Shown in pieces: positions 38,974-59,254 of a DNA stretch of 64,000 bases (position 1 is the stretch's first letter; each line of letters opens with the position of its first letter). The translations under genes were made by a program, and so were the position numbers. Location: positions 1 through 64,000 of the forward strand of contig JADQBQ010000032.1 in the NCBI GenBank assembly GCA_016278505.1, given 5' to 3'. Source of the stretch: Clostridiales bacterium (GTDB lineage: Bacteria > Bacillota > Desulfotomaculia > Desulfotomaculales > VENG01). The notes beneath the pieces are model-generated. The model was not told the origin of the DNA. It made no database searches and saw nothing but the letters and a program-made list of their open reading frames with translations.

Positions 38974-39026
38974 TTTTACAGTATAATTGTTACAAAAGTT
39001 CGATTTTTTGTTACAGGCATGTAAAC
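38974..39026. promoter_or_regulatory. Conserved 53-bp element, copy A
   Basis: TTTTACA, seven bases, TGTTACA (38988), 14 bases, TGTTAC (39009), four bases, ATGTAAAC (39019-39026). The same blocks at the same spacing recur at 40154 and 59202. TGTTAC repeats 21 bp apart, two helical turns, as expected for OmpR/PhoB-type regulators. On the minus strand TATACT at 38985-38980 could be the -10 of the CheY-kinase operon, with the repeats covering the -35 region. The copy lies in the divergent gap between that operon and the OmpR-type gene. Confidence 0.72.
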
Positions 39027-39095
39027 CTCTTTTAGTATTAACTAATTATTCAATTACTCATCTGTTTATAATTACATTTCCACAGGAGCAAATCC

Positions 39096-39800
39096 ATGCG
39101 AAAAGTAATCATGATTGTTGACGACGATCTCTCCATACGTAAATTGCTAAAAGCCGCTTTAGAAAAAAACGGGTATAATACGGTGCCTTGCACCTCAGGC
39201 GAAGAAGCCCTGGAACATCTTGACAAATACCACATTGATGCAATAATACTGGACATCGTCCTGCCCAACATGGACGGCTTGGATGTTTTAAAAAAGGTCA
39301 GGAATTCGGTGCACCGGCAAATACCCGTGATCATGCTCACCTGCAAGGACAGTGAAATTGAAACAGTCATCGGCCTGGAAATGGGCGCGGACGATTACCT
39401 GAGCAAACCGGTAAGGTATCATGAATTAATCGCCAGATTGAAATCGGTATTCAGAAGAATAAACGCCGGCGCCCAAACCGAACCCGGGTCGCTGAACCTG
39501 CACGGCCTGGAGATAAATATGGCCACCCGCACTGTATATATTTACCGGACACCGGTGGTATTCACTTACATGGAATTCGAACTTTTGGCTTTCCTGGTCC
39601 AAAACCCCGGCAGGGTCTTTTCCAGGGAATATTTACTTGATGTTTTGTGGCATGAAGATCAGTTTGTGGAAACCCGCACTGTTGATGTGCATGTCAGGCG
39701 CCTCAGAAAAAAAATGGAAGAGCACGGGCTAAGCCCCGGTATAATAGAAACTATCAGAGGCGTGGGCTACCGCCTGACCGGATTACCGGAAACGGACTGA
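39096..39800 (+). CDS. OmpR/PhoB-family response regulator
   Basis: The N-terminal receiver (VDDDLSIRK, LDIVLPNMDG, LTCKD, SKPV) is complete. The C-terminal winged-helix DNA-binding domain runs from ~130 to 228 and ends with the family pattern VDVHVRRLRKKM...IRGVGYRL. AGGAG lies seven bases before the ATG. No dedicated kinase is fused or directly downstream; the hybrid kinases on both sides are candidates. It is the only DNA-binding regulator among the signalling genes and the natural candidate to bind the repeated 53-bp element, one copy of which lies 70 bp upstream. Confidence 0.93.
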   Translation: MRKVIMIVDDDLSIRKLLKAALEKNGYNTVPCTSGEEALEHLDKYHIDAIILDIVLPNMDGLDVLKKVRNSVHRQIPVIMLTCKDSEIETVIGLEMGADDYLSKPVRYHELIARLKSVFRRINAGAQTEPGSLNLHGLEINMATRTVYIYRTPVVFTYMEFELLAFLVQNPGRVFSREYLLDVLWHEDQFVETRTVDVHVRRLRKKMEEHGLSPGIIETIRGVGYRLTGLPETD

Positions 39801-39805
39801 CGTAT

Positions 39806-40069
39806 TTAACCCTTCATTCTTTTGATTACACTCAACAGGTTATAGACTCTGTATTTATTTACAACTTCCCTTCCCAGGATTAACACTCCAATCCAAAAAA
39901 CCAAATGACTAGATACATATAGCGCAGTACATATAAACAATTTCATTTTCAAATAAACAGGTAAAAACGGAACGATTAAAATAAAACTATATATAATCCA
40001 GGAGAAGATAATAAAAAAGAGACCAACCTTTTTTATCTTTGTTTGTTTGTTTTGTTTTTGATTACACAA
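39806..40069 (-). CDS. Small two-helix membrane protein (transporter-suffix-like)
   Basis: Two hydrophobic helices (VGLFFIIFSWIIYSFILIVPFLP and LVFWIGVLILG) end in GREVVNKYR. This resembles the small 'transporter suffix' proteins of unknown role. The TTG start has no clear ribosome site, so the start is uncertain. It is convergent with the OmpR-type gene, leaving five bases between stops. It starts 85 bp from element B. Confidence 0.55.
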   Translation of the reverse strand: MCNQKQNKQTKIKKVGLFFIIFSWIIYSFILIVPFLPVYLKMKLFICTALYVSSHLVFWIGVLILGREVVNKYRVYNLLSVIKRMKG

Positions 40070-40153
40070 AGTACCAGCTTCCAGTCCCGCCAGCCACTTT
40101 TTGATGGCCGGTTTTCTGCGCTTGTTTTTTTATCGGATTGGTTATTATAATCC

Positions 40154-40206
40154 TTTTACAATAATATTGTTACAGAATTTAATTCTTTTGTTACGAAAAT
40201 GTAAAC
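40154..40206. promoter_or_regulatory. Conserved 53-bp element, copy B
   Basis: TTTTACA, TGTTACA at 40168, TGTTAC at 40189 and ATGTAAAC at 40199-40206 keep exactly the spacing of copy A. It lies in the divergent gap between the small membrane gene (leftward) and the giant hybrid kinase (rightward, start 80 bp away). TATTAT on the minus strand (40166-40161) is a possible leftward -10. Confidence 0.7.
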
Positions 40207-40285
40207 TATTTGAAAACTATTTAGTTTGAAAAGTCATCCCACATTCTGAATGACTAAATATAAATACAAACTATGGTGGTTTACC

Positions 40286-43200
40286 ATGATAAATGATGAT
40301 TTTAGAATAAGCAGCAAATTATATGAAAGTTCCGGACTCATCCTCTGCCGTGCAATTAAAAAAAATAACGGCAATCCAGTCATTTTAAAGCAAATTAAGG
40401 ATGAGCACCCTTATATGGACAGGTTTTCTTTGTGTAAGAGAGAATTGGAGGCGACTAAGAATCTTCAGCATGAAGGCATCCTTAAGATATGGGGAATTGC
40501 CGAAAACCACCGTGCCCCGGTGCTGGTCATGGAGGATTTTGAAGGAAATGTTCTGGCCAATATTTTGGCCAACGGCAAAATCAGTATACAGCTGTTTCTG
40601 AAAACTGCCCTTAGACTGGCGGACATACTCGGTTTTATTCATAGTGCCAAAATGTCCCATTTTCAAATCCAACCTGAAAACGTGCTTATTGATCCGGACA
40701 GCGCGGCAGTCAAATTGACCGGTTTCAACCCGTATACCGGCATTCCCGTTCACCAACAATTACCATCCTTTATCAGTAAATTTAAAGTCGCTTATATATC
40801 CCCGGAACAAACAGGGAGGGTGGTTCAAGAGGTTGATTACCGGGCCGATTTCTATTCCCTCGGGGTGATATTTTACCAGATGTTAACGGGGGTTTTACCC
40901 TTCCGGTCGGATGACTATATGGAAATAATATACTCCCACCTGGCCCGGGAAGCAGTCCCGATTCACGAGCTTAATAAGGAGGCACCCCGGGTTTTATCCG
41001 ATATTGTAGGCAAGCTAATGCAAAAAGAGGCTGAAGAAAGGTACCAAACCGCCGCAGGTCTGAAACGTGACCTGGAAGAATGCCGCCAAAGGCTTGCCTG
41101 TCAAAGTGGAATATTTAAGATCGCTCCCTTTACCCCGGGGCGGTATGACGCGCCGGTAAAATTACAGTTGCCGCAAGGGGTATTCGGCCGGGATGAGGAG
41201 CTAAAAAGGCTTGTGACCTGCTTTGATCAAGTCCGGGAGGGCAAGCCCGGGATAGTCTTCATCGCAGGTTACCCGGGGGTTGGTAAGACGACCCTGGTGC
41301 GAGAAATGTATGCCCCGGTAAAGAACGCCGGAGGTTTATTCACCTATGGAAAATTTGACCAGTATAAAAATAATACCCCCTATGCTTCTTTAATTCAGGC
41401 CTTTGACCTTCTTTTCAGGAAAATACTGGCTTGGGACAAAGACAGTATTACCGCGTGGAAAGACAGAATTACCGGTGCCCTGGGCAATAACGCAGGAGTG
41501 ATTACCAATGTCTTTCCGCGGCTGGAAAAGATTACCGGCCCCCAGGAACCGGTGGAAAACCTCCCTGTAAATGAAGCGCAGTACAGGTTAAACCGGGTTT
41601 TAATCAGTTTCCTGCAGGCTGTGGCGACAAAGGAAAACCCTCTGGTTATTTTTCTGGATGACCTGCAGTGGGCAGATAACAGCAGCATCCAGCTTTTGGA
41701 TCTTATACTCTCGGGCGTCGAAAAAATGCACGTTTTGTTTATAGGGGCATACAGGGATAATGAAGTAACCCCCTTACACCAGTTATATCCCCTTTTAGAA
41801 AAGACGCCCGGTACAGGCGTTGTGGAGATTATTAACCTTAAGCCGCTGGCTCCGGAACATGTTCGCCGGATAGTTTCCGAGATGCTTTACAACAGCGATC
41901 AAACAGAGATGCTGGCCAAGCTTTGTAGTGAAAAAACGGGTGGAAATCCTTTCTTCCTGTTACAGTTTATCAAATCACTTCAGGACGATGGTTTAATCAA
42001 TTTCAACCGGCAAGAAAGAAAGTGGGAAGTAGAATTAGATCAGATCACCCATCGCAATGTTACCGATAATGTTGTTGACCTGGTAGTGAGGGAAATTGCC
42101 GGGCTACCGCAAAGGACCACTGAAATACTCAAATTGGCGGCTTGTATCAATAACACCTTTGAGGTCGAGACCCTCGCGGCCATTCTTGGCGTTTCGCGTC
42201 AATCTGCCGCCGAAGCGCTTATGGTTGCAGTTCGGAGAGGACTGGTGGTTTCCCAGGATGTGTCCCACAGCTACCGTTTTTTGCATGACCGGGTTCAGCA
42301 GGCAGCCTATATCCTGGCCAGCAAAGAACAGAGAATAGATTTTCATTACCGGATTGGTAAGTTATTGCTGGAGAAACATTTTGAATGGGAAAAGGCGGAA
42401 AATCTACTGGAAATTACGGACCATTTAAATTTGGCCGAAAGTATTGTAACTGCGAGGAACGAGAGCCTGCTGCTGGCCAGGCTCAATCTGGAGGCCGGCA
42501 CAAAGGTGAAAGGGTATTCCGCTTATCAAAGGGCGCTGGACTATTTATCCCGGGGTATCGGCCTGGTGGGAAATAACGGCTGGGATAACTGCTACGAAAT
42601 TACTCTGTCCCTTTATACACAAGCAACCGAGATGGCTTACATATGCACCCAATATCAGCCCATGGAGCAATTTGGAAACACAGTCCTGGACAAGGGAAAA
42701 ACCCTTCTCGACCAGGCGAAAATATACGAAATAAAAATTGAGTACTTAACTGTGCAAAACCGGTTGGAAGAGGCCATTGAAACGGGCAGGCATGTTCTAA
42801 AGCGTTTTGGGATTAAAATTCCCCGCCGGCCCACCCGCCTGAATATTATGCTCATGTATTTCAAAACCCGGCTGGCCCTGGCGGGCCGAACATTTGACGA
42901 CCTGAGAAAAATGCCGGAGATGCAAGACCCCAAACACTTGACCATGATGCGGATTATTATCAGTACAGGCTCTGCGGCATACAGTTATTCAGAGCCGGTA
43001 GTGGTAATGCTTATGCTAAATTTGGTACTGATGTCTATAAAGCACGGTATTGCACCGGTTACACCGGTGTCCTATGTGGTATATGGACATATACTGTGCG
43101 CTTATATTAAAAAAAGAGAACTGGGGTACAAATTCGGCAAACTGGCTATAGAATTGCAAGCCGGCATGGAATCAAAAGCCTTTGCCTGCAAGACCAACAT

Positions 43201-46200
43201 GCTCTTCGAGATACTATTAAGACACCAACGGGAACATATTGGCAATACGCTGAACGGCTTCCCTTATAACCACCAACAGGGGCTGAATACCGGTGACTTG
43301 AATTCCGCAGGCCATGTGATGATGCAGCACTTTACTTATTTGTACCTGGCCGGCAGGGAGCTTTTATCTATACAGAGGGATATTGAGCAATACAGGTATG
43401 ACTTGCTCAAAACCGGTAACCAGACATCAATTAATGTCTGCATGATGTACCTGCAGGGGATTGTTAATTTGCAAGGAGCTACAGGGGAACCATGGAAATT
43501 AACCGGGCAATATTTCAACGAAAAAGAGACGCTGACGCACTACAAATCAGCCAATGACCGGACTATCATTTTTAACTCTTATTTTAATAAAATGATTATT
43601 TCATATTTATTCGGACAGTATAATGAGGCCCTGAATAACCTCAAAATAGTGGAAGAATACCTGGACGGTGCCATGGGATTTTATTGCATACCGGTTTACA
43701 ATTTCTACAGTGTTCTGATCCGCCTGGAATTGCTGGGCGGCTTTTCCGGCCGGGTAAGGAGCAGGCATAAAAAGAAAATGCTTGCCTGTCTCCGTGAAAT
43801 TAAAGGCTTTTATATGGACGCGCCTGAAAATAATACCAATAAGTACTTCCTTGTTTTGGCGGAGCAAGCCCGGGCTGCAGGAAATCATAATCAGGCTATG
43901 GAGTATTATGACAAGTCCATTAAAGCGGCCGGAGAAAACGGTTTCTTGCCGGAAGAGGCACTGGCCAACGAGATGGCGGCAAAATACTATTATTCCACAG
44001 GCAAAATAATTATTGCTGAGAATTATGCAAGAAATGCAGCTTATTGTTATACTAAATGGGGATGTGAATTAAAGGCAAAACAGCTTCGGGAGCAGTATCC
44101 GAATTTGCGGCAGGAAATGGCATCATCCAGGGACATTTCTCCCGGGGAGCTGGATTTGAATACTATCGTTAAAGCCAGCCAGGCACTTTCTGAAGAAATC
44201 GTCCTTCAGGAACTGCTGAAAAAGATGATCTATATTGTTTTACAGAATGCAGGGGCCCGCAAAGTTCTATTTGTTATGGAAAAAGAAGGGAAACTTTATA
44301 TTGCAGCGACAGGTAGTGCAGACAGTGACCAGGTTAAAGTAATGAAAGGAGAGGCTGTCAAGGGAAACTCTTCCGTTTCCGAAAAGCTTCTAAATTATGT
44401 GGCTAACACCGGAGAGTATTTACTTCTCAACAGCAGAAGCGATATTGAGACTTTTATTGATGAACAGTCCGTGCAGAATAACGATGCAAAATCCTTATTG
44501 TGCTTTCCCGTGGAATCCAAACGCAGCCTGGCAGGCTTGCTTTACCTGGAGAATGATTTAATGGACGGGGCTTTCACCGGCCGGCACCTGCTGGTTTTAA
44601 AAGTACTTTCCTCCCAGCTGGCCATATCTCTGGAAAACGCCAGGCTGTATCAAAACATGGAAAGAATGGTGGAAGAAAGAACAGAACAACTAAAAACCAA
44701 AAACTATGAGCTAGAATGTGCCAATATGGAGCTGGAAAACGCTAACCGTGCCAAAACCGAGTTCCTGGCCAATGTTAGCCATGAAATGCGTACTCCCCTT
44801 CATGGTGTTTTAGGAATGGCGAATCTATTACTAAAAGCCGACTTTGGCCCTGAGCAGAAGGAAAACATAGATTCCATCATCAATTCTGCGCGTTCCTTAC
44901 TGGAAATAATCAACGCAATACTTGACTTTTCCAAAATTGAATCCAATATGATGATTTTGGAAAAATGTAACTTCGATATTGACCAGTTGATAAAGGAAAT
45001 ACTGCCTGCTTTTGTTCTAAAGGCGGAAGAAAAAGGTTTAAAGCTTTTCTCCACCATACACCGGGAATCAACACATTGCTTCTATGGCGACCCCTTAAAA
45101 ATAAAACAAGTAATAACCAATCTTTTGAGCAACGCAATAAAATTTACTGAACAGGGGAAAGTGGAGCTTTTAGTATCGGTGGTTAAAAGCGGAAATAATA
45201 AATACATAATGGAAGTATCGGTAATAGATAGCGGAATTGGAATTCCCCGGGACAAGTTTGATTATATTTATCAAGATTTCACCCAGGTGGATAGCAGTAC
45301 CACCAAAAAATACGGCGGAACCGGGTTAGGGCTTTCCATTACCAAGAAACTTGTCCGGCTGATGAACGGTACCATCACTGTGGATAGTTCTCCGGGGCAG
45401 GGCAGTACGTTCAAATGCATGTTGCCTCTCCAGACTGCGAACAGCAGCCAAAATACCTTTTCCGCCAATGGCCAAGATAAACTGAAGCATAACAAGCAAG
45501 ATCTTGCTCCTCTGAGAATACTGGTTGCGGAAGATAATTTGATCAGCGGAAAATATATTAAGGCTTTATTGGAATATCTAAACTGTAACGTAACCCTGGT
45601 TATAAACGGCATGGAAGTTCTGGAGACGCTAAAGACAGGTAACTATGACTGCATTATCATGGATAAGAACATGCCTGAAATGGACGGTATTGAAACTACC
45701 CGGATCATTCGAAAGGATGAGGAAGGCACCGGCAAGCATATTCCCATCATCGCCCTGACGGCTTCAGCCATAAAGGGGGACAAGGAGAAACTACTTGCCC
45801 AGGGCATGGATTACTACCTGTCGAAACCCATTAATGAAACAGAGCTGGTAGAAATACTAAAGGATGTGAAAGACAGAATGACATCTAAAACACTGCCGGG
45901 GAATAATGTGATAGCCAACAAAGAAAAATTCATAAACCGGCAGGTTTATTTGGAAGAGGCTTCCCTGTTCGGAGAAGAAGTATTCCTGGAGATAATCTCA
46001 GATTTTATGGCAGAGTATCAACAAGCATTACAAAGTATAGAAAATCAAATCTTAAATAACGATTGTACCGGCGCTTACGGCAACATACACAGATTTGCCG
46101 GCACCTTGGCTACTTTTCACTGCAGCGGTCTGGTGGATGAGGTAAAGGCTCTGGAACGAAAAGCAGCGGAAAAAGATATTGAAGGCCTTCTCAACCTATT

Positions 46201-46303
46201 GCCGGTTTTCAAGGATAACATTCAGGCATTTTTAACTGAATGTGAAGATATTAAAAGTATACTGGTTAAAAGAACAGTTAACCGTAACAACACCCCCGGT
46301 TAG
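40286..46303 (+). CDS. Giant pseudokinase-AAA-GAF hybrid histidine kinase
   Basis: Domains: Ser/Thr-kinase-like (~1-265); an AAA/NACHT-type ATPase with Walker [10 protein letters not shown] (328-336) and Walker B FLDD (D458-D459); a long helical repeat region (~600-1280); GAF (~1290-1455); HisKA with H1499 (SHEMRTP); an ATPase domain; a receiver with D1793 ([10 protein letters not shown]); and Hpt with H1935. This is the layout of bacterial Ser/Thr-kinase/two-component hybrids. However, the kinase catalytic loop HRDxKPEN reads HFQIQPEN (125-132) and DFG reads GFN, so both catalytic Asp are lost although the ATP Lys (VILK) remains: a pseudokinase. ATG 40286 follows GGTGG; 40250 lacks a site. 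Confidence 0.92.
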
Positions 46304-46308
46304 TCCCA

Positions 46309-46347
46309 AAAGGTAACCTCGCACCGAAAGCGAAGTTACCTTTTTTT
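46309..46347. terminator. Bidirectional terminator between convergent genes
   Basis: AAGGTAACCTCGC and GCGAAGTTACCTT pair with one mismatch around an ACCGAAA loop, and seven T follow on the plus strand. A runs on the other side allow leftward use too. It ends the giant kinase gene and the surface-protein operon. Confidence 0.8.
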
Positions 46348-46352: not shown

Positions 46353-49300
46353 CTATTTGGAAAGTAATTTATACAGCACATATACAACCTCCAACCTTTT
46401 GGAAGTTGCCTTGGGACTAAGTCTTTCACCTTTACCCGCAATAATTCCGGTTTCAACAAACAGTTTCATCGCTTCCACCGCATAGCCTGAAATTTCACTA
46501 GCGTCGCCAAAACTCTCCAGGGGTTTACTGCCCTTACCCTCCGGCAGTTCCCCCATTTTCTCCAACATGCGGTAAAGGATAACGAACATGTCCTGGTGGC
46601 TGATGGTAGCTTCGGGGTGGTAAAGGTTATTACCTATTCCCGCAACGAGACCAAGCCGCTTTGCAGTCCCCAGGTACGGGGTGTAATATGTGTCACCCGC
46701 GTCGGAGAAATTACCGGCGACATAGCTGTCAAGCTCTATATCGTATGAATTCATGACCATAACCAGAAAATCCGCCATGGTTACATTATTACGGGGTGCA
46801 AATCTTTCCCCGCCTATCCCGTTTACAATGTTTCTTGCCGCCATAAAGCCTACTGCTTCACTGTACCAGGCACCACCGGCTACATCATCGAAGTTAACTT
46901 CATTATAGCCCACTGCAAAATTTGAGAAGTGGGAGGTTTTGAAATCAACCGTTCCGGTTTCTTCGTCATACCTCCCCCTTACTGTTTTCAGATTACCCTC
47001 GTCACTAATGTAATAGACTATTATGGAGTTTTTCTTCTCACCTGGTGCGGGGGTATAGGGGATGCTTATATTTACCTTCCCCCCTCCAAAGTCGGAAATT
47101 GCAGTAGTCCCCACCCTTGCGGTAAAGTCATATACCGGCCTGTTGCCTACCTTGGCCTTTATTCTTGAGGGCAAAGTTTTGTTATCCACCCTGTCCATGC
47201 TAATACCGATATTTCCTCCCGGTGCCGCTCCTCCCAATTTTTCCACCGCTTTTTTATCGAAAATGGCTGTAGCTATTGCTGTATTAACTTTCAAACCTGT
47301 GTTGCCGGTTTCCGGCAGCTTTTTAAAGGCATCTTTATCTATTTCTATAGTTACCTCATTTGTCTTGGGGGGTGAATCAACTATTATTTCCACTACCGTT
47401 TTTTGTTCTTTTTCTGTTTCTTTAATTTTTGCGATTAGCTCTTCCAGTACTTTAGCTTCTACCTTTGCCGATGCCTTGCCGGTTACTTCACCTATTGTGG
47501 ATGTGACGGTGGTTGATACCGTAACTGTTCTCCCATCCTTTGATGATATTGCTGTAACCCCGGTTGATGGTATTTTAACCCCCGGTTTCGGCAGCGGTGA
47601 TGAGCGACGGTTGTTTTTTCTACCGGTATCACCACCATCGTCACTGTCATTATCCCCGCCATCATCTGTACCGTTATGGGGGATCCAATCGGCATACAAG
47701 ATTGCATTAGCATTACCCATGCAAAAAGTGTCACCCGTAGAGTAAAGGGTTGTATTGCCGCCTATTATCGCATTCCAACCGTTAAAGATATAACCGTTTT
47801 TTACGAGGTTGCCTGTGTTGCCCAAAACCCTAACCGTGTCACCTTTCTCATAATTAACGCTGTCAATGGGAACACTTCCTCCGGTATTACCGTTACCATA
47901 ATAGGTTACATTGTAGGTATTAGCTTCAATCTTGACCTCTCCCACCGACAGTTTCCTTATATCTTCCAGGGCAAAACTTCCGGTGAGAGGATAGGAAGCC
48001 TTCACAAAAACAGGCCCCGACCCGTCAATTGTCAACTCACCTTCACTTGAAATATTAGCATATTCTTCTCCGGAGGGTATCGACCAGTTTATATTACTGT
48101 TGTCTATAACGATCTCGCTGCTGTCGTTATAAGTTCCATACACCTGTAGTTGTACCGATTTATGCTGCTCAATCCTGCTTGCAGCCAAATCTATTCTAAT
48201 TGATTGTAATTGATTTGTTGCAGCCTTCATTACTTTTGTCTCAAAAGCACTGGTATTGCCCGCATCATCTTCAGCCTCTACCGAAATGATCTTACTCTGG
48301 CTTCCCGCCATGGTAACGCCACCGGTAAATATGCCGTCCTGTTTAGTTTTGACTAACCGCCCGTTAACGGTAACCCGGCTGCCGGGCTCGGCAAAACCGC
48401 TCACATTGACCCGGTCACCCTCGATTATCTGCCCCTGTTCAGGACTGTCAATCATCAGAACGGGTGGTGTAGTATCAACATGAACCATAACCGCTTTTTG
48501 GGTAGCATCACCGGCAGCGTTCCTGGCAGTCAAAAGAAGAACATTATTTCCTTCCTGTAACTCCAGGTTGGTTTTCAATGACGTTCCCTCGTTACTACCC
48601 AACTCTTCTTTTTCCCGGGTTAACCCTTCTTCTCCGCCGGAAACTTTAACTTTTTCTCGGATAATCTTCAGATCGGCATTTTCACTGGTTTTCAGTTGAA
48701 CGGCAATCTCACCGTCACCAGTTAAATAAGCTTCTTTCCCCTGAACCATTCCTTTTTTGAGGTTTCCTGCCGCATCCTTCAGGATAAAGTCCAGCTGCGG
48801 GTAATTTGCTTCCCTGAATACCAGGGTGTTGCTGCCGGTTGGGCTGCTTGTGTAAGTGGCTTCTACATTGTCTCCTTGTCCATTCTGTTTCACGACATTA
48901 TTTACTGCTGTCACGGCTACTTTATAAGTGTCACCATCAACAAGCCCGGTTTCCCGGCCGTTACTCTCCCACCTGCCGGCAATAAAGGTTTCCTGAGTGG
49001 CACCCTCGCGGCGTTCATGATAAGCAGCACCTGTATTAGGTAGTGGTTGACCGTCTTCGTCCAGGATTTCAATATAATATCCCTTTGCCTTTTCATCTAT
49101 TGAATCCCAGATTACTTTAAGGCGGTTGCTACCGACGTTTTCAAGCTGAACCCTGCCGGGCGCTACAGGTGTATGGATACTGGAAACAAGCACGGTGTTG
49201 TTGGAATACATGGAGTCAACATTACTCCCGTCCTTGATCAATTCCGCCCGTACATAATAATTACCTGATGACAAGTCTCCGGGTATTTCCATCTTAATGG

Positions 49301-52300
49301 CACAGTTATTTTCTGTGATATCATATTCACCAACCAACCGGCCTGCATCATTAACATCTTTGCTCAAGTACAGTCGCGTACTCAAGCCTTTACCCAAATT
49401 TGTTTCCAGCATCAAATCAATACTATCACCCTGCTGTGCATCAACATCACGACTTATAACATCAAGACCTGTTATAACAGGAAGCTCGGCAACTTGGATC
49501 AGTTCATAATCTACGGGACTGCCGGATGACAACTGCCACGCTCCGGTCTCCGGTCTTTCCAGCAAAATAAAGACAATTTTCTCGCCATTTTCTTCCGATT
49601 GGAAGTAGTTTTTATCCTCTATCAGCTGAAATCCGCTGCCACCGGGTTTTGTCAGAGTTAGCCCGGGCACGCTTTCACCGCAGGCAATTTTAAGCAGCAA
49701 CTTTCCGGTTTGATTGATTGTAATTTGATGTTCCTTAGCGGCTGTGGCCAGTAAGGAGGCTAAATGAGGCGGGTCGCTGTCTCGCGATGCCAGGTACTTA
49801 GGACTTCTTTTACCTAACTTGGACGAAGCCACCTGTTTAAAGTTGTCAATCACCAGTTTTTCTCCATTGGCTCCTTCCTTGTAGACATATTCATTATTCC
49901 CTTCCACGGGAGTGGCTGTACCGGTGGAAGCCAGCAAATGTATGGCATTGTCTTTCCAGATGTATTTGGCCCCGATGTCCAAAACACCGAATGCTTTTCC
50001 CCTAATATAGACATTTTCATTACTAATCCCCAAAAAAGCATCCGCCAAGCTGTATCCAAAAATAGTTCCCGAAACTTTTCCATTCCCCCCCAGGTCAATG
50101 GGACGCAGGGGATTATCATAGTTAAATGCATTATAACCAATGTAGAGTTTAGCTCTTCCTTCAAGTAAATCAAGTATGTTAAGACCACCTTCACCGGCAA
50201 TACGGATACCGGTTTCGGGACTGTCAAGAATGGAAAGAACAGCATCCGCCAAGTTAAGGGAAACAATACTCACAGTTCCTTTAACCTCTGCCCTGTTTTT
50301 GGAAACATATATTTCTACCGGATCACCACTTAGAATTTTCCCGGTGGGGTCTGCTATACCTCCGGTAAACTCAACCCAAGGCAAAGCAGAATTATCCCGT
50401 TGGTCACCGGATAAAGTCGAAATATTGTGTATGCCGGCACCACCCCGAACGATATTAAATAGAACGGTAGGCGGGAGAACAGGGAACCCTGGTTTACCAC
50501 TAATCTCAAAGTCAATGGTGTCCGGATAGGGAGTATATATTGTATTGTCCTCTACCGGTACTTTAAAAATCAAGGTTCCATTTCCATTAAGGATTTGGAA
50601 TTCAAAATCTACCTCCAGCCCGTACATATTTTCAATGGTATCAATCATCAGGGTGCCGCTGCCTCCCAGATCGATACCCGGAATAAGGCCGGTGGGCACA
50701 CCAACTGTGGGACTGGCTTTAATCCCCTCATACCCGGAGGCTGAATAACGGATATCCTCAACCTCAATTCCGGCTCCCAGGTCGCCGGCAAAAAACCCCA
50801 TACTTCCACCCAGAGAAACACCATCGCTTCTTAACTTAATATCCTTGATGCTTACCAACCACCCGCCAATTGTCTTGGCAAAATCCACCAATTGATTTTC
50901 ACGACGGATTTCAATGGGCAAAAACTCCTCTTCGGAGACACCATCTCCCCAATCCGTTCCTTCTCCCCACGGGTCTTCCATAGGGAAGGAATAGGTATAG
51001 GCCTTGCCATCTTCCAACTCCAAGGAAAAACTGTCATTGATTACTTCAGTATCATGCACCGATAGAATACCGTTTCCTTCAAGCTTTATATATTGGCCGC
51101 CGTTTTGTGAATATTTGTTGATAAACATTTTTCCACCGGGATGATCCTCCGGAGCACTATAAACAACAGCTCTGTTAATCATACCACCGTCCCCAATCGC
51201 AAAGCCGTTGTCTTTATTGCCGGAGATGCTGCCTCTAATATCGATTAGGCCCTGATATTGATCCTGCCGGTAAAAATTATCCAACTCCCTTTCATTGTCA
51301 AAAACCACCATTTCATGGACATTAGTATCAGTATCCCGGTAAATAAGTAAAATACCATAGTCCTTATTTTTGTACTTTTCTTCGGAACTGGCCGTTATAG
51401 TGGCATTGAAAATATGGGAACCTACTATGCTGTCCTCCCTGGTCTTGATGCTTACATGATATTTCTCATCCATTTTAAGCCGGCTATTAGCATTTTGAAC
51501 TTCGGGAATTAAGAATGTAAGGAGATTATCATTTACAACATTGATGGCATGATTGGGAATTGCAATCCGGTTTTCTGAACGCTCTGTATTTTGCAGAACA
51601 ATTTCCATATCTCCGCTTTGCCCGATACTTCCTACCTCTAAATTATTAAAACCGCTGCCGGTAACCCGGAAAACTCCCGGTTCTTTATAGAACACATTGT
51701 CCGGAGTGAGCCCTGTAAAAGTTAGCGACGGCCAGTTTTCCACCGGCGGAACAATGACTTGGTAATCATATACTCCACCTTCCTGTTCACCTGTTTCCGA
51801 GTCGGTGTAAGCATAAATTATCTGAAAAGGATGCAAATAGGTTTCGTTCTTCATCGTATCCACCGCAACGGTAGCGGTAACCGTGGCACCATCAGCGGGG
51901 TACAATTCACTAATTCTCCTGGCTTCCGTATCATACAGCATTCTTTCCGCGCCGGCTCTCCTGTAATCCTTTACCGTAATACCACCGGGTGAAACCAGCA
52001 TCACACTGATATTTTTAATGGTTTCGTTATAGGTATTTTCAAAGTTAATATCCACTTCAAAATCCCGGTAAGCATCCCCCTCCGGTGTCAGTTCAACCCG
52101 GGCAGGGAACTCTACATTTTCCGGCGGCAAGGGATTTTTGGAAACAAGACCCATCCCAACACCGTAATGCGTTGCATAATTAATAGCTTCTCCCGGTTGG
52201 AGAACCACAGGCTCCCAGTATATGGCCACGGCCGCATCGCCGGTCTGATAGGAATTGTCGGTAGTGGTAAAGTCCAGTTCCGGGTCAGGGGTATAATCCC

Positions 52301-53099
52301 ACTTGTTGTCTTTCAGGTTTTTCCAGTGGCCAACCACAATCCGGTCAGGATCTTTGTCACCTATATCCCGCAGTAATCCATATGTATGCCGCAGCAAGGG
52401 AGTATTACCGTAGCGAGATTCCGTTCTCCAATAGTCCGGAACGGCTTCCCCGGAATACCGGTATTCGTGTTCTACCTGTACCTCACCGGTCGGCCCGGGA
52501 AAAAGAACCTTCTCCGGACAATCGGAGTCGCCTGCCGCTATGTCCAGAAGGGGCCGCACACCAACTTTTCGGTCAACCCCGGATGTATTTTTTATGGTGT
52601 AATTTATTTTAACCAAGCCTGCTTTAGGGTCCAATTCATCAGAGGGTACAGTGATGGTCTGGGTCGCTTCCAACCCCTTAACCTTCCATACCGTTTTATG
52701 GGTTTGCTCGTCAACCAATTGGTTGGATACAACATTGTTTCCAAAGCCCAGAAAACCGTAATCATTACCAAAAATGTAGTTCTCACCGTCAATTCGAAAA
52801 GTAGTAAATGAACTTTCAGCACCCCATTGACCTTGTGAATTAGGGGTTTTACCTGCTGTTAAAAGGTCCATGCCAAAGTCAACATTGTTAGTGGGGTCCC
52901 CCTCCAGGGTTCTGATCAGAAACCTGCCGTTTACCGGATCAACGCCGGCCATCAGCAAATTATTTTTCACGATGGAAAGGGTAGTATATCCGTTAGTCCA
53001 ATCAATGCCCGCCTGGGCGACTCCCGCCGGTAAAAGGAGAGAAATACAAAGGAGCAAACATATTAATTTATTTAGTAATCTCAAATGCTTCTTTCTCAT
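46353..53099 (-). CDS. Giant S-layer-anchored multidomain surface protein
   Basis: A signal peptide (LICLLLCISLLLPAGVAQA) leads into 2200 extracellular residues. Recognisable modules, in order: an IPT/TIG-like domain (SLTFTGLTPDNVF, ~470); a large beta region (~600-1150); a CARDB-like domain; fibronectin III (~1330-1420); Ig-like modules (PPVLMIDSPEQGQIIEG); a Big_2-like domain; an InlB-type B-repeat (TYYGNGNTGGS...GYIFNGW); an Asp/Gly-rich linker; and three SLH motifs at ~2060-2248 that bind secondary wall polymer. The start overlaps the stop of the upstream giant gene by one base (TAATG), with AAGGAGG nine bases before. The partner upstream lacks an anchor, so this protein probably holds both at the surface. 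Confidence 0.88.
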   Translation of the reverse strand: MRKKHLRLLNKLICLLLCISLLLPAGVAQAGIDWTNGYTTLSIVKNNLLMAGVDPVNGRFLIRTLEGDPTNNVDFGMDLLTAGKTPNSQGQWGAESSFTTFRIDGENYIFGNDYGFLGFGNNVVSNQLVDEQTHKTVWKVKGLEATQTITVPSDELDPKAGLVKINYTIKNTSGVDRKVGVRPLLDIAAGDSDCPEKVLFPGPTGEVQVEHEYRYSGEAVPDYWRTESRYGNTPLLRHTYGLLRDIGDKDPDRIVVGHWKNLKDNKWDYTPDPELDFTTTDNSYQTGDAAVAIYWEPVVLQPGEAINYATHYGVGMGLVSKNPLPPENVEFPARVELTPEGDAYRDFEVDINFENTYNETIKNISVMLVSPGGITVKDYRRAGAERMLYDTEARRISELYPADGATVTATVAVDTMKNETYLHPFQIIYAYTDSETGEQEGGVYDYQVIVPPVENWPSLTFTGLTPDNVFYKEPGVFRVTGSGFNNLEVGSIGQSGDMEIVLQNTERSENRIAIPNHAINVVNDNLLTFLIPEVQNANSRLKMDEKYHVSIKTREDSIVGSHIFNATITASSEEKYKNKDYGILLIYRDTDTNVHEMVVFDNERELDNFYRQDQYQGLIDIRGSISGNKDNGFAIGDGGMINRAVVYSAPEDHPGGKMFINKYSQNGGQYIKLEGNGILSVHDTEVINDSFSLELEDGKAYTYSFPMEDPWGEGTDWGDGVSEEEFLPIEIRRENQLVDFAKTIGGWLVSIKDIKLRSDGVSLGGSMGFFAGDLGAGIEVEDIRYSASGYEGIKASPTVGVPTGLIPGIDLGGSGTLMIDTIENMYGLEVDFEFQILNGNGTLIFKVPVEDNTIYTPYPDTIDFEISGKPGFPVLPPTVLFNIVRGGAGIHNISTLSGDQRDNSALPWVEFTGGIADPTGKILSGDPVEIYVSKNRAEVKGTVSIVSLNLADAVLSILDSPETGIRIAGEGGLNILDLLEGRAKLYIGYNAFNYDNPLRPIDLGGNGKVSGTIFGYSLADAFLGISNENVYIRGKAFGVLDIGAKYIWKDNAIHLLASTGTATPVEGNNEYVYKEGANGEKLVIDNFKQVASSKLGKRSPKYLASRDSDPPHLASLLATAAKEHQITINQTGKLLLKIACGESVPGLTLTKPGGSGFQLIEDKNYFQSEENGEKIVFILLERPETGAWQLSSGSPVDYELIQVAELPVITGLDVISRDVDAQQGDSIDLMLETNLGKGLSTRLYLSKDVNDAGRLVGEYDITENNCAIKMEIPGDLSSGNYYVRAELIKDGSNVDSMYSNNTVLVSSIHTPVAPGRVQLENVGSNRLKVIWDSIDEKAKGYYIEILDEDGQPLPNTGAAYHERREGATQETFIAGRWESNGRETGLVDGDTYKVAVTAVNNVVKQNGQGDNVEATYTSSPTGSNTLVFREANYPQLDFILKDAAGNLKKGMVQGKEAYLTGDGEIAVQLKTSENADLKIIREKVKVSGGEEGLTREKEELGSNEGTSLKTNLELQEGNNVLLLTARNAAGDATQKAVMVHVDTTPPVLMIDSPEQGQIIEGDRVNVSGFAEPGSRVTVNGRLVKTKQDGIFTGGVTMAGSQSKIISVEAEDDAGNTSAFETKVMKAATNQLQSIRIDLAASRIEQHKSVQLQVYGTYNDSSEIVIDNSNINWSIPSGEEYANISSEGELTIDGSGPVFVKASYPLTGSFALEDIRKLSVGEVKIEANTYNVTYYGNGNTGGSVPIDSVNYEKGDTVRVLGNTGNLVKNGYIFNGWNAIIGGNTTLYSTGDTFCMGNANAILYADWIPHNGTDDGGDNDSDDGGDTGRKNNRRSSPLPKPGVKIPSTGVTAISSKDGRTVTVSTTVTSTIGEVTGKASAKVEAKVLEELIAKIKETEKEQKTVVEIIVDSPPKTNEVTIEIDKDAFKKLPETGNTGLKVNTAIATAIFDKKAVEKLGGAAPGGNIGISMDRVDNKTLPSRIKAKVGNRPVYDFTARVGTTAISDFGGGKVNISIPYTPAPGEKKNSIIVYYISDEGNLKTVRGRYDEETGTVDFKTSHFSNFAVGYNEVNFDDVAGGAWYSEAVGFMAARNIVNGIGGERFAPRNNVTMADFLVMVMNSYDIELDSYVAGNFSDAGDTYYTPYLGTAKRLGLVAGIGNNLYHPEATISHQDMFVILYRMLEKMGELPEGKGSKPLESFGDASEISGYAVEAMKLFVETGIIAGKGERLSPKATSKRLEVVYVLYKLLSK

Positions 53100-56000
53100 T
53101 ACCCCTGACCTCCTTCCACCACTTCAATGACTATGCGTTTATCCACCATTTCCTGGTCATAAGCATAAACGGTGTAAATCCCGGGCGTTAAGTTAACGGG
53201 GTACATTCTCTCGCCGCCCGGGTGGCTGTTATAGGTAACTCCGGCCTTCTTAAATGCCGCTGCCGGTCTTTCGCCGTCAACTAACTTCACCGTATACTCA
53301 CCCATAAACCCGGCAAAATCTATAGCTGTAGTAACGGTTGAAGTATCCGCAGGTACTTCCACCGTTACCCTGTCTTTAATTTCCTTCCCGTTCACGAAAA
53401 TGCCGGGTGAATACCTGGTTACGGCCAATAACTTAACGGTAATTGTATTTGAGGCCTGCCCGGCCCGGTCTTTTACATAAAATTCATAGGTGATCAACTC
53501 ATCTCCAAGGTCAGTTATCACCCGTTCCTTAACAACACTCTCCATGCTGCGGCTTATATCCTCGTCATTGGCATCTACAGCCTCCATGTAGCTTAAAATT
53601 AGCTCTAAGGCCTTATCCTGTTGGTCACGCTCCGCAGCAATTGCTTGGGGCCCGGTATATGTCAGCACCGGTGGATTTTTGCATATGTTGTCGACGGTTA
53701 CAATTTTTTCACTCTCGTTACCCGCTATATCCTCTGCCGTTATTTTTAGCTTACAGTTTTCCTGCACCGTCAGATGGTAGCTATCACTTACTTTGCCTTC
53801 ATATACGGTCTCGGATACAGACTGATCTGAAATATCATTTATACGCAGGTTTACTTCCTCATTAACAGTTATTGTAACAACCACATCTTCTCCTGTGGGC
53901 GTCCCTATATTTTTCTCCGCATTCATTTGTGGCGGTTCCTTGTCAATCCAGTCTACAGTTAAGGGATAAGAATAAACCTTGCCCGAAGGCCAATGCTCTA
54001 CCTCGTACGTGTACTCCCCATTTTCCGACACAATCAAATCGGAACCGATAGGGTAGCTTTCGCCGTCTTCTCCATCCTTCACGTAAATAACCACCTGGGT
54101 AGATTCATTAGTGGGCTTGGGAACTTCCCGATTCCCTTGCAAACAAGGATTGTATTCGAAGCGGTCAAAAACAGGCTTTTCCCCTATAATACAGTCTACG
54201 GTAACAGTCTCACTGCCTTTGTTTCCGTAATCATCTTCGAATTCAAAAGTAAAATTGCCGTTTTCAGTGAAAACATAGCGATTACTGCCGTTATTGTTGG
54301 TGATATTAAAGCCTCTGTCATTGCCGGGAGTCCACCCTGGCGGCCTTACCAGATAAATCCAGACCGTCACATCTGATCTGGTAGGTTCAGTGGCACTATA
54401 CATGGCCCGCACCTTCGGCGTTTGGTCAATCCAATCCACCCCGGCGGCGACTACCCCTTTGCGGCCCTGGGAGTCATAATAAGTAAAGGTATGGGTGCCG
54501 TTTACGTAAAAAATATGCACCAGCGGAAGCTTTCTGGTATATTTGGTGGCACCATAAATATCTCCAAGCTCGTCATAAATATAGTCACCGGGATCAACAG
54601 GTACAAGTGAGGCGCTCACAAAGGCCGTTTCTATCTTCTCCCCCGGGTATGATGGCTCAGGATTATATATAATCTCGACGGGTGTTGTTTCCGGATCCGA
54701 TTCAGTTGTAAAGCTCCAGGTGATTTCTGCGTTGCCGAGACCATTTGAATTATCTACGGCATTTTCCGGAACGGTGACGGTGTATTCCGTGCCGTACGCA
54801 AAGGGATCGTGGGCTATGGTTAAGGTGCGACTATCTTCATTAAGGGCGGCACTCACGTTACCCAATTCACAGGTTGTCCCGTACTCTTGGTACTCTATCT
54901 TAATGTCGTTTAAGTCATTGGCAATTATATCACCGGTAAACTGTATGCTTACTGCTGCACTCGGGGCTATCCCCGTGCCACTGTCCGCCGGCATCAATGT
55001 CTCGGGTGCCGGGGCCGTTGGTACCGGTTTAGCTTCAGTTGTAAAACTCCAACTGATGTAATTGTATTTATCGTAAATACCGGCGTTGTTTCGTACTGTG
55101 TCCTGCGGAAGCACAACAGTGTACTTGGTGTCATATTTAAACTCGTTATGAGCTATGACGATGGTGCAGCCGTTTATAGTACCGCTTACACCTTCCAGAT
55201 GCCGGTTATCGCCTTCATCTTTAATGTAGATTTCATCGAAATAATCTCCGGCTATAATATCCCGATCGAACGATACGCTGACCGGTGCATCCAAAGCTAT
55301 TCCCACTGCACCGTCCACCGGCGCCATTGTCACCGGCTCTGGGGCCGGCTGTTGTTCTACTATCACATCCAACTCTTGATTACCATGAACCCCATCAACA
55401 TCTACCGTTAAGGTATATGTTGTAATATAGATCTTAGGATCCACTATGGTTAAGCTCACAACAGCATCTCCATTAGTAAAAGTTATCGGACCACTGTATA
55501 ACTCAACTGCCACTGCATTTTCGTCAAATTTTTCTTTCTCACTTACTGTAACATTAATATTACCGTTTAGGTTTTCACCATAAACATCCCTGGCACCCGA
55601 TATGTTCAGGTCAAAGGGTTGACCGGTCATCTTATTACCCGTTTCGACCAATGCCAACTTAAAGCCGGATTGATCCTGATCTGCAGTTACAATCACTGTG
55701 TAATCTCTAGTTATACCATCCTCTGCTGTCACGATATAGGTAACCGGCTCGCTAAAGTCGTTAGCTGTGACCCGGTTGAATTGATCCACACCTGCAACTT
55801 CCACGGTTTCTCCGGTTGTGCTAAAAGTTGCCACTAGAGCTGTTACATCGGTACCATAAGGAACAGCTGCTTGAATATCAGTGCCATTGATGACCGCTGT
55901 TATATCTTCATCCAAAGTACCATTGTCAGCTGCCATAAAACCAAAAGCGGTAATTTCCTTGTCGCTGCTGGGGGGAGGGATCACAGCAATACCAAGACTC

Positions 56001-59000
56001 TCGACACTGGTCACCCCGTCCACTTCAACCGTCATGTTATGGGTTGCTACTGTGTTTAAGGTGATGCCTACGGTAGCTTTCCCTACGGTAAAAGTTACCG
56101 GCCCGTTGTATACCTCACCCTCTGCCTGATCGCTGGTTACCGTCACATTTATATCACCGCTTAAATTTTCACCATAAACGTTCCGGGCACCCGAAATGTT
56201 CAGGTTAAAGGCATTTCCAGCTATCTTGTCACCAGCTTCTGACAATGCTACCCCAAAGTTAGATTGCTCCTGAGCTTCGGTCACAGTCACCGTGTAATCT
56301 TTGGTTGAGCCGTCCTTCGCTGTCACGGTATAGGTGACCGGCCCGGTAAAGTCGTTGACTGTTTGCCCGCTTACCTGTTTCACATCTCCTACCTTAACTG
56401 ACTGAATACTTGATGATGTGGTAAATGATGCTACCAGGTTAGAAACATCTGTACCATAGGCTACTTCTACATCAATAGTACCGGCTTTAGAATCTATAAT
56501 AGCTGCTCCGGTTTGCTCATCAAAGCTACAGCTTAGAATCTCGACTGTTTCAGTGGTAAAACTCCAGGTTATTTTTAAATTTCCAGTATTGGTTAGGGAG
56601 CCAATTACTGTATCCTCTGGAATGGTGACGCTGTATTCCGTGCCATATTTAAAGGGGTCGTGGACAATGGTAATGGTGCGGCCAGTCAGGGTGGCGCTTA
56701 CATTCCCCAGTTCCTGAATTATTCCACCATTATCACAATCTATCTTGATACCGCTTAAGTCGTTCAGAGTTATATCCCGGTCAAACTGTATGCTTACCGG
56801 CGCATCTAAAGCCACTCGTGTTGTGCCGTCTCCCGGTGTTAATGTATCGGCTGCCGGGAATGGCAACATAGCTTGTGAGAATGGGTAGTTGCCTTCCTGC
56901 ATATTCCATATATTGGTAAAATCCCATCCCTCAAAGGTGGATTGTGATTGCATTTCCTGGGTAGTTTTGGGTGCACCTTTACCGGTGTCGCTCTGGCCAG
57001 TGGTTTGAGAGTCATAGTAGGAGACAGAAACAGTGCCTGAATATTCATAGCCCAAGAGGCCGCCAACATCACCGACGCCTGTAACACTTCCCGCTGCATA
57101 GCTGGATTTAATCTCACCGCCGGACTGTATTGATCCTACCAGCCCACCAATCTTGTTGTTGTTTCCAACAACATCTCCAGTAGCGTAACTGTTTTCAATC
57201 GTATAACTGCTAAAATTTCCAGCCAAACCGCCAACATAAGAGTTACCCGTTACTGAAGCTGTAGAAAAACTCTCAGTAATATTACCATTGTTGCTACCTA
57301 CCAAACCACCGACATAGTTATTCCCTTGAACTGATCCGAAAACGGCGCAGTTGATAATTTCTCCAACATATTCCACTAATGGGTCTCCATAATAACTAGT
57401 AGAGTTATAGCCCAGCAGGATTCCTGTGTTATCCCCTCCAATAACATTACCCGATACATAGCAATTATTCATCTCACCACCTGAATTGAATCCAAATAAA
57501 CCTACATAATTTTCATCGGGGCGGTTGATATTTAGATTGCTGATAGTATGGAAGTTGCCATCAAATGTACCTGAAAAGGACGGTTCTCCCCCAAAACCTC
57601 CAATGGGGTTCCAATTATCGTACCCTGAGAGATCTATATCACTTATTAGCGTAAAATTCTTATCCATGTAGTTCCGCACGTTATTCAACTGGTCCGCTGT
57701 GGCGATTTGATAAGGAGATTGCTCCGTCCCGTCCCCACCGGCAAATACTGACAGGCTTGTGAAGCTCCAGGTAATTTCTGAATTGGCAACTCCCGTTGAG
57801 GAACTTATTATTGTATTTGCCGGAATGGTGACGGTGTATTCAGTGCCGTACGCAAAGTCATCATGGGTTATGGTGATGGTGCGATCAGTAAGGATGCCGC
57901 TTACGTTCCCTGCTTCTTGGGTTCCGTTATCATACTTTATTTGAATGCCACTTAAATTTGTTTCAGTAATATCCTGGTCAAACTGTATACTCACCGGCGC
58001 ATCTACTGCTATTCCTGTTGCACCGTTTGCCGGTATTAAATCTTTAACTGAAGGAGAGGGTAAGTATATTTGTGGAATTGGATATGGAAATGCCTCTTCA
58101 CCTTCCTGAAACATCCATGTATTTTCAAAATCCCAGCTCACAAAGGTGTCTTGTGATAGCATGTCCAATCTGGTTTTGGGTTCTCCTTCTTCCCCGATCC
58201 GGGCAGCATTAATTGATTCATAGTAAGAATCAGAAACAGTGCCCCCGTAATTAGCACCGGCTAAGCCTCCAACTTTACTTTCTCCATCAACAGTTACAGC
58301 TGTATAACAAAACCTGACTTCACCGCCGGATTGTACTGCCCCTACCAGTCCACCTACATAAATGGTTCCCGAAACAGTAGTGGTTTCAGGAGCTCCATAG
58401 GCAAAACTGTTTTTAACGACACAATTAGTGCCAACAGTTCCGACTAAGCCTCCAACATTGTCACCGCCTGTTACTTTAATCCCCATAGAGCTGCTTTTAG
58501 TAATATTACCACCGTTATAGCCCGCCAAGCCGCCCACATGATTATTCCCGTAGACTTCTCCGGCTACGGAGCTAGCGGTAATAACACCGCCGGAATTCTG
58601 GCCCACCAAAATTCCACTATTATCAGCCCCGGTAACATTCCCCATTACTAAGCAATTTTTTATCTCACCCGTATTGAATCCAAACAAACCTATGTTTTTC
58701 TCGCCGGGTCGATCAATATTAAGAGAATTGATGCGATGGAAATTGCCGTCAAATGTGCCGCTAAAAGGAGATTCCGAACCTCCGATGGGTTTCCAGTTGG
58801 ACGAGTACTCTGACAGGTATATATCTTTCACCAGCGTAAAGTGCTTATTCAGGTAGACGGATTCCCGCACACTATTCAATTGTTCCGGTGTCGCGATTTC
58901 ATAAGGAGATTCCGTCGTTCCGTTCCCGCCGGCAAACAGGCTTGCATGCGCCGGTAAAGGATTCCCAACGCTCAAGGATAAATAAAAAAGAAGCATGGAC

Positions 59001-59056
59001 AATAATACTACCTGCAAAAACTTATACATTAAAAAAAGACTTTTGTTTTTTTGCAT
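53099..59056 (-). CDS. Giant secreted protein with GLUG, Ig-like and SbsA-type repeats
   Basis: A signal peptide (VVLLSMLLFYLSLSVGNPLPAHA) is followed by two GLUG-repeat blocks (VGGLVG/VGGLAG motifs, ~85-300 and ~510-720). At least four SbsA-type Big_5 Ig domains follow the pattern APVSIQFD.DI...EYTVTIP...ITWSFT. There are two copies of a cadherin-like pair (YTVTAKDGSTKDYTVTV; FDLNISGARDVYGENL) and several Ig-like modules towards the end. The near-identical modules point to internal duplication. No SLH, LPXTG or transmembrane anchor is seen. GGAGGG precedes the ATG. Adhesion or matrix binding is inferred from the modules only. Confidence 0.85.
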   Translation of the reverse strand: MQKNKSLFLMYKFLQVVLLSMLLFYLSLSVGNPLPAHASLFAGGNGTTESPYEIATPEQLNSVRESVYLNKHFTLVKDIYLSEYSSNWKPIGGSESPFSGTFDGNFHRINSLNIDRPGEKNIGLFGFNTGEIKNCLVMGNVTGADNSGILVGQNSGGVITASSVAGEVYGNNHVGGLAGYNGGNITKSSSMGIKVTGGDNVGGLVGTVGTNCVVKNSFAYGAPETTTVSGTIYVGGLVGAVQSGGEVRFCYTAVTVDGESKVGGLAGANYGGTVSDSYYESINAARIGEEGEPKTRLDMLSQDTFVSWDFENTWMFQEGEEAFPYPIPQIYLPSPSVKDLIPANGATGIAVDAPVSIQFDQDITETNLSGIQIKYDNGTQEAGNVSGILTDRTITITHDDFAYGTEYTVTIPANTIISSSTGVANSEITWSFTSLSVFAGGDGTEQSPYQIATADQLNNVRNYMDKNFTLISDIDLSGYDNWNPIGGFGGEPSFSGTFDGNFHTISNLNINRPDENYVGLFGFNSGGEMNNCYVSGNVIGGDNTGILLGYNSTSYYGDPLVEYVGEIINCAVFGSVQGNNYVGGLVGSNNGNITESFSTASVTGNSYVGGLAGNFSSYTIENSYATGDVVGNNNKIGGLVGSIQSGGEIKSSYAAGSVTGVGDVGGLLGYEYSGTVSVSYYDSQTTGQSDTGKGAPKTTQEMQSQSTFEGWDFTNIWNMQEGNYPFSQAMLPFPAADTLTPGDGTTRVALDAPVSIQFDRDITLNDLSGIKIDCDNGGIIQELGNVSATLTGRTITIVHDPFKYGTEYSVTIPEDTVIGSLTNTGNLKITWSFTTETVEILSCSFDEQTGAAIIDSKAGTIDVEVAYGTDVSNLVASFTTSSSIQSVKVGDVKQVSGQTVNDFTGPVTYTVTAKDGSTKDYTVTVTEAQEQSNFGVALSEAGDKIAGNAFNLNISGARNVYGENLSGDINVTVTSDQAEGEVYNGPVTFTVGKATVGITLNTVATHNMTVEVDGVTSVESLGIAVIPPPSSDKEITAFGFMAADNGTLDEDITAVINGTDIQAAVPYGTDVTALVATFSTTGETVEVAGVDQFNRVTANDFSEPVTYIVTAEDGITRDYTVIVTADQDQSGFKLALVETGNKMTGQPFDLNISGARDVYGENLNGNINVTVSEKEKFDENAVAVELYSGPITFTNGDAVVSLTIVDPKIYITTYTLTVDVDGVHGNQELDVIVEQQPAPEPVTMAPVDGAVGIALDAPVSVSFDRDIIAGDYFDEIYIKDEGDNRHLEGVSGTINGCTIVIAHNEFKYDTKYTVVLPQDTVRNNAGIYDKYNYISWSFTTEAKPVPTAPAPETLMPADSGTGIAPSAAVSIQFTGDIIANDLNDIKIEYQEYGTTCELGNVSAALNEDSRTLTIAHDPFAYGTEYTVTVPENAVDNSNGLGNAEITWSFTTESDPETTPVEIIYNPEPSYPGEKIETAFVSASLVPVDPGDYIYDELGDIYGATKYTRKLPLVHIFYVNGTHTFTYYDSQGRKGVVAAGVDWIDQTPKVRAMYSATEPTRSDVTVWIYLVRPPGWTPGNDRGFNITNNNGSNRYVFTENGNFTFEFEDDYGNKGSETVTVDCIIGEKPVFDRFEYNPCLQGNREVPKPTNESTQVVIYVKDGEDGESYPIGSDLIVSENGEYTYEVEHWPSGKVYSYPLTVDWIDKEPPQMNAEKNIGTPTGEDVVVTITVNEEVNLRINDISDQSVSETVYEGKVSDSYHLTVQENCKLKITAEDIAGNESEKIVTVDNICKNPPVLTYTGPQAIAAERDQQDKALELILSYMEAVDANDEDISRSMESVVKERVITDLGDELITYEFYVKDRAGQASNTITVKLLAVTRYSPGIFVNGKEIKDRVTVEVPADTSTVTTAIDFAGFMGEYTVKLVDGERPAAAFKKAGVTYNSHPGGERMYPVNLTPGIYTVYAYDQEMVDKRIVIEVVEGGQG

Positions 59057-59201
59057 TCCGTTAACCCTCCACAGAAAACTAGTTTTTTCTTGTTTTCTTA
59101 TCTAGATAGTATTTAAATTTTATATAATCTCTGGCGGCGCATACAACCTTTATTGTAAGGTTGATCAATCAATGATGGTGGTTGCACTGAACCAGCAAAC
59201 A

Positions 59202-59254
59202 TTTTATAACATAATTGTTACAAGAATTCGTTTTTATGTTACCAGAATGTAAAC
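59202..59254. promoter_or_regulatory. Conserved 53-bp element, copy C
   Basis: TTTTATA, TGTTACA at 59216, TGTTAC at 59237 and ATGTAAAC at 59247-59254 repeat copies A and B without a gap. The only gene it can serve is the leftward surface operon, whose start is 146 bp away. On the minus strand TATGTT (59213-59208) falls where copy A has TATACT. This copy therefore suggests that the element drives leftward, activator-dependent promoters. Confidence 0.72.

Follow-up and report, generated by a model that had tools for sequence, protein, structure and literature searches.

A 53-bp tandem-repeat element and an adjacent OmpR-type regulator as a probable small regulon with surface and sensor-kinase targets in a Clostridiales bacterium

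Genes and element copies at the locus

The window, a stretch of 64,000 nucleotides from a Clostridiales bacterium, holds a block of sensory and surface-protein genes in which a 53-bp element occurs three times (W1–W3; Table 1). The copies align without gaps and in the same orientation (plus strand as read), with 36 of 53 positions common to all three and pairwise identities of 40/53, 43/53 and 40/53; the preliminary description had placed them at the same coordinates and estimated about 36 shared positions. The motif TGTTACA, a TGTTAC 21 bp further on and ATGTAAAC are invariant across W1–W3, and conservation ends sharply at either flank. All three are intergenic and upstream of genes, with the TTTTA end facing the minus-strand gene. 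Their earlier assignment to the kinase operon and OmpR-type gene, the membrane gene and giant kinase, and the surface operon was confirmed in gene content; no element in the window faces the giant-kinase gene.

Table 1. Genes, element copies and associated features of the locus, in window coordinates
Feature	Position	Strand	Remarks
174-aa protein, unknown family	33531–34055	−	Conserved in kinase operon
GAF + CAAX-protease-like membrane protein	34056–35522	−	Conserved in kinase operon
Hydrogenase-like hybrid kinase	35584–38454	−	Fe-hydrogenase-like domain, HisKA/HATPase, two receivers
CheY-type single receiver protein	38479–38853	−	First gene of W1 operon
Element copy 1 (W1)	38974–39026		Faces (−) CheY/hydrogenase-like-kinase operon; OmpR-type gene (+) beyond other end
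W1 promoter end (predicted)	38974–38983	−
W1 half-sites, read on +	38988, 38999, 39009, 39020		TGTTAC, TTCGAT, TGTTAC, TGTAAA, respectively
OmpR/PhoB-type response regulator	39096–39800	+	REC + Trans_reg_C; proposed binder; start 70 bp past W1
87-aa membrane protein	39806–40069	−	Transporter suffix family (NF033684)
Element copy 2 (W2)	40154–40206		Promoter end toward small membrane (transporter-suffix) gene (−); giant kinase gene (+) on opposite side
Giant hybrid kinase, 2017 aa	40250–46303	+	Ser/Thr kinase-AAA_16 ATPase-GAF-HisKA-HATPase-REC-Hpt
2248-aa secreted surface protein	46353–53099	−	S-layer homology (SLH) domains, Glucodextran_B; second after W3
1985-aa secreted surface protein	53099–59056	−	Big_5, GLUG repeats; signal-peptide-like N terminus; first after W3
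Element copy 3 (W3)	59202–59254		Promoter end toward giant surface-protein operon (−); no adjoining plus-strand gene
Terminator-like hairpin, insulating W3	59274–59298	−	Toward upstream DUF4070 fragment; 1 found against 0.3 expected

The element is rare. Within the window, the core TGTTAC-N15-TGTTAC-N4-ATGTAAAC with up to three mismatches matches only at W1–W3, and 100 dinucleotide shuffles gave no match. In the whole genome (G000, 3.92 Mb, with the window on contig 46) zero copies are expected and three exact core matches are found, again W1–W3; at three mismatches one further match appears, as does one with the reversed-pattern control, which marks it as background. A sequence-only profile of 53 positions, built from seven copies, recovers all seven at E ≤ 7e-12. 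Scanned against G000, it gave no other match below E = 0.05, the next best being the reverse strand of W1 at E = 0.05.

Some further features were seen around the module. Beside W3 lies a 106-aa DUF4070 fragment (59342–59662), a domain normally found in larger proteins; it is probably a gene remnant. The frame of the small membrane gene (39806–40150) is open upstream of its TTG start, with no standard start codon, and TTTGTGTA around that start is conserved with G068, a related genome described below. The genes argH (28634–30034) and argG-argF-argD (60142–63954) flank the module on opposite sides, with about 30 kb between them. G068 likewise has argD-argF-argG directly adjoining the module, which suggests a conserved insertion point.

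Distribution of the element in related genomes

Across 113 genomes of the order, which are also the class-level set, the element was found at ≤1 mismatch in two: G000 and G068, a member of a different family. Close orthologs of the regulator (E ≤ 1e-70) occur in the same two of the 113 and in no other. The chance that two independent genome pairs out of 113 coincide is 1 in 6328, with few independent genomes behind the co-occurrence (two in the order plus G478, below). Orthologs of the giant kinase (65–66% identical) are likewise confined to G000 and G068, the other genomes having paralogs at 32–34%.

Contig 11 of G068 carries the same locus. Its proteins are 70% (regulator), 69% (hydrogenase-like kinase), 77% (CheY), 53% (GAF/CAAX), 52% (174-aa protein) and 56% (suffix protein) identical to those of the window, and the gene order is rearranged, with the suffix, GAF/CAAX, 174-aa, CheY and hydrogenase-like-kinase genes in one operon. 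G068 holds four elements. G1, the counterpart of W1, precedes the regulator gene and is bordered on its other side by a gene for a LuxR-type regulator. W2 has two counterparts: G2, which heads the suffix-to-hydrogenase-kinase operon, and G3, in reversed orientation, which heads the giant kinase. G4, on a separate contig, heads an operon encoding a Polysacc_synt_2 dehydratase, a sugar transferase, a glycosyltransferase and a UDP-sugar dehydrogenase. Despite these gene moves, every unit is still headed by an element whose A/T end points to the gene, the behaviour expected of a directional promoter. We also observed a second giant-kinase paralog (33% identical; G068:C24:132558-137285, L132 5059-9786), with a LuxR-type end, directly before the G4 operon.

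Allowing ≤2 mismatches, a scan of 398 sampled genomes of the phylum added one genome, G478, with three elements within 4.6 kb. Its 21-kb contig encodes a regulator homolog (48% identical), with an element 72 bp upstream, and a frameshifted giant-kinase homolog (41%); the two further elements face the genes of a secreted Big_2/NHL/CuAO-N1 protein and of a lipoprotein. Since the three G478 elements share extra common bases downstream, regulator and element were apparently duplicated there. A fragment of a second OmpR-like gene lies beside another element (G478:C5; L184 8628-9050). G000, G068 and G478 agree in having an element shortly before the regulator gene, with its orientation relative to that gene unchanged. 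The three remaining single matches in the phylum sample resemble background; lone matches at two to three mismatches (G000:C55, G068:C14, G068:C38, G017, G431, G380) were set down to chance, as reversed-pattern controls gave similar or higher numbers and their spacers are unlike the element.

Half-sites and the predicted promoter

Comparison of ten copies resolved four invariant or near-invariant half-sites: TGTTAC (element positions 15–20), a TTCGAT-like hexamer (26–31), TGTTAC (36–41) and TGTAAA or TGTTAA (47–52). Their offsets of 0, 11, 21 and 32 bp place them on one helical face. Promoters activated by B. subtilis PhoP carry four TTAACA-like repeats upstream of the −10. The ten copies also have an invariant TA at element positions 4–5, and on the minus (transcribed) strand most of them read GTTTACAT-N4-GTAACA-N15-TGTAAC-N5-TAyTGTAAAA. 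Judged from its letters, the element is a predicted tandem operator joined to a promoter, and the conserved A/T block at one end is probably the −10.

A ribosome-binding site follows G2 and G4 almost directly (about 10–20 bp after the element), which makes a −10 within the element probable. Two registers fit, TAyTGT or TAaAAa, and W2 has an alternative TATAAT further downstream. No −35 hexamer occurs at the proper distance: the best match is 3/6 or lower in seven copies with both −10 registers, in line with the activator-type minus-strand −10 lacking a −35 that had been proposed before. On the plus strand, W1 and G1 have a TAGTAT in common, which may act for the regulator gene alone. A plus-strand promoter in every copy was ruled out, as W3 has no plus-strand gene. 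An ECF-sigma promoter was rejected: by eye, no conserved −35/−10 pair stands at ECF spacing, and there is no sigma-factor gene among the scanned window proteins. A leader RNA element is unlikely, since W3 and G4 lie upstream of any plausible transcription start.

Candidate regulator, sensor kinases and alternative readings

Most probably the 53-bp element is the activator-dependent promoter/operator of a small regulon under the adjacent OmpR/PhoB-type regulator. Two regulator dimers would bind head-to-tail on the four half-sites, which follow one another at 10–11 bp along one DNA face (TGTTAC-N5-TTCGAT-N4-TGTTAC-N5-TGTAAA), and the bound regulator would bring RNA polymerase to the A/T-rich −10 beside them, which lacks a −35. 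Minus-strand transcription would run from W1 into the CheY/hydrogenase-like-kinase operon, from W2 into the small membrane gene and from W3 into the giant surface-protein operon; W1 probably also drives the regulator gene at its other side, giving autoregulation. The OmpR-type protein, already suspected to be in control, is on comparative grounds the likely binder, because it occurs in the same 2 of 113 genomes as the element and has the element at the same place upstream of its gene in three genomes. The idea of a single regulon also stands, as a small dedicated one whose three copies track one regulator clade. Surface output, the third part of the earlier proposal, recurs as giant surface proteins here, the polysaccharide operon in G068 and secreted proteins in G478; each of the three lineages has the element at a surface or secreted target, which strengthens this link.

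Gene neighbourhood makes the giant Ser/Thr-His hybrid kinase the likelier partner of the regulator, ranked above the hydrogenase-like kinase. It would most likely pass phosphate to the regulator via its own REC and Hpt domains. The protein contains PF00069, PF01590, PF00512 and PF02518, as HstK-type dual kinases do. Cyanobacterial members of that group (cbSTKIII) similarly combine a Ser/Thr kinase, GAF and HisKA in a single chain (PMC2176072), whereas the giant kinase adds AAA_16, REC and Hpt and has beside it a dedicated regulator for which an operator is predicted.

The hydrogenase-like kinase might instead be the sensor that phosphorylates the OmpR-type regulator, so that hydrogen or redox state controls surface display; this reading is compatible with the regulon proposed above, and we consider it doubtful. 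In the window and G068 alike the regulator has this kinase as a neighbour, the kinase operon carries the element, and the cluster-loop cysteines of the kinase (SPC, PCxAKKSEL and CEGC-type) are retained in 12 of the 12 homologs listed. Against this, the pair of CheY and hydrogenase-like kinase occurs in G074, G097, G030 and G020, none of which has a close regulator ortholog. No element, at up to five mismatches, lies near the operon in G030, G074 or G020, even though G030 has the entire suffix-to-kinase operon. Conversely, the 21-kb contig of G478, which carries the regulator, giant kinase and elements, lacks the pair. The kinase also comes with receivers and a CheY partner of its own, and its third cluster loop departs from that of catalytic enzymes (below). 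As its operon is found in other genomes that have neither regulator nor element, the hydrogenase-like kinase seems to be a target, and the redox or hydrogen input put forward in the preliminary description is possible but not supported. The family of this kinase is present in 16 of the 113 genomes of the order.

Canonical FeFe hydrogenase H-cluster loops include CxxxC in L3. The third loop of the hydrogenase-like kinase is a CxxC instead (LYCEGC or similar; CEGC in the window protein and ten homologs, CDGC in the other, with the L1 and L2 cysteines retained) and does not show the pattern of an active FeFe hydrogenase. The protein may be an FeS sensor and not a hydrogenase. It resembles the sensory Fe-hydrogenase-like histidine kinases, in which Fe_hyd_lg_C with two N-terminal FeS motifs is fused to HisKA/HATPase, and departs from them in its L3 CxxC and in scoring 143 bits against the TIGR04105 cut-off of 450.

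By domain scores (PF00072, 103.9 bits; PF00486, 96.6 bits) the regulator belongs to the OmpR/PhoB family, and it lies under the NCBIfam equivalog cut-offs for PhoB (220.9/296.2 bits), MtrA (206.8/300) and YycF (201.3/340). In a tree of 56 regulators, the proteins of the window, G068, G478 and L005 form one starred clade (100/98), apart from the WalR-like (VDVT-type) group. The L005 member (L005_RR, 57% identical), the one clade member that a scan of genome contigs with the regulator returned, has no element in the 115 bp between its gene and the contig end upstream; this gene (L005 116-820, MAG Clostridia bacterium M55B163) lies near two ABC-type peptide exporters and small GG-type leader proteins, possibly a peptide-secretion locus. 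The half-site geometry fits the OmpR/PhoB family, which supports the regulator as binder, and so does the recognition helix of the regulator, RTVDVHVRRLRKK, which is similar to that of WalR, RTVDVTVRRLREK. The half-site offsets agree with the 11-bp direct repeats of a Pho box. The Pho box core, however, is TGTCA, whereas that of the element is TGTTA or TGTAA; the predicted targets include no phosphate genes, and the regulator falls short of the PhoB equivalog. PhoB binds two 11-bp direct repeats spanning 22 bp (PMC3978041), and the Pho boxes of E. coli PhoB and Streptomyces PhoP share with the element their tandem 11-bp repeats and an OmpR/PhoB-family binder (PMC3978041, PMC2605767).

A housekeeping regulator of WalR/YycF or PhoP type, encoded elsewhere, could also be proposed as the main binder, with the element marking an envelope or phosphate regulon and the OmpR-type gene merely a target. 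The WalR/VicR operator is TGTWAH-N5-TGTWAH (PMC4168254, PMC5405149), and the distal box TGTTAC-N5-TGTAAA matches it exactly in W1, W2 and W3. Direct repeats with an 11-bp period, a winged-helix OmpR/PhoB-type regulator and envelope or surface targets are common to WalR/VicR (YycF) of Bacillota and the present system (PMC4168254, PMC5405149), and the classical WalR targets include envelope and surface genes (PMC9210968). The element nevertheless differs in its four half-sites within a fixed 53-bp frame, its central TTCGAT and its three to four copies per genome, and the regulator stands outside the WalR clade and under the YycF and PhoB cut-offs. It tracks one rare regulator clade (2 of 113 genomes plus G478), whereas general OmpR-family regulators occur in 60 of 60 genomes searched, and three copies are too narrow a set for a housekeeping regulator. 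Such a binder is thus quite improbable.

A mobile or recombining repeat (MITE-like or a site-specific recombination site) lying between genes by chance would account for a 53-bp repeat at three places in one orientation, but is hardly credible, given only three copies, no sign of terminal inverted repeats or of a recombinase (Pfam scans turned up neither a recombinase nor a sigma factor among the main window proteins), strict placement upstream of genes, a spaced conservation pattern inside the element, and retention, in either orientation, beside orthologs in another family. The low copy number and the conserved positions rule out a MITE, REP or recombination site, and the many unrelated copies that the preliminary description associated with a mobile repeat are not there.

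OmpR/PhoB-type regulons with tandem-repeat operators are an already known kind. Our literature search found no description of the locus, and within its reach the regulator clade, the operator and the regulon are all undescribed. The analysis takes a hand-spotted repeat to a defined candidate regulon, with a regulator clade, a precise predicted operator, three to four promoters in each genome and equivalents in three lineages. HstK-type dual Ser/Thr-His kinases are common and their outputs are little covered in the literature found; in the locus, such a kinase comes with a regulator next to it and a list of predicted targets. These targets vary by species (S-layer-type giants, a polysaccharide operon, secreted repeat proteins) around a constant set of regulator, kinase and operator, a clear example of regulon rewiring. 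We speculate, with little confidence, that one operator joins two unusual sensors, the hydrogenase-like FeS kinase and the giant Ser/Thr-AAA-GAF-His phosphorelay kinase, in feedback, such that the metabolic or hydrogen state of an anaerobe would time the rebuilding of its surface, whether by S-layer-type giants or polysaccharide. If true, this would be a dedicated surface-remodelling switch, refitted with different surface cassettes across species of the phylum.
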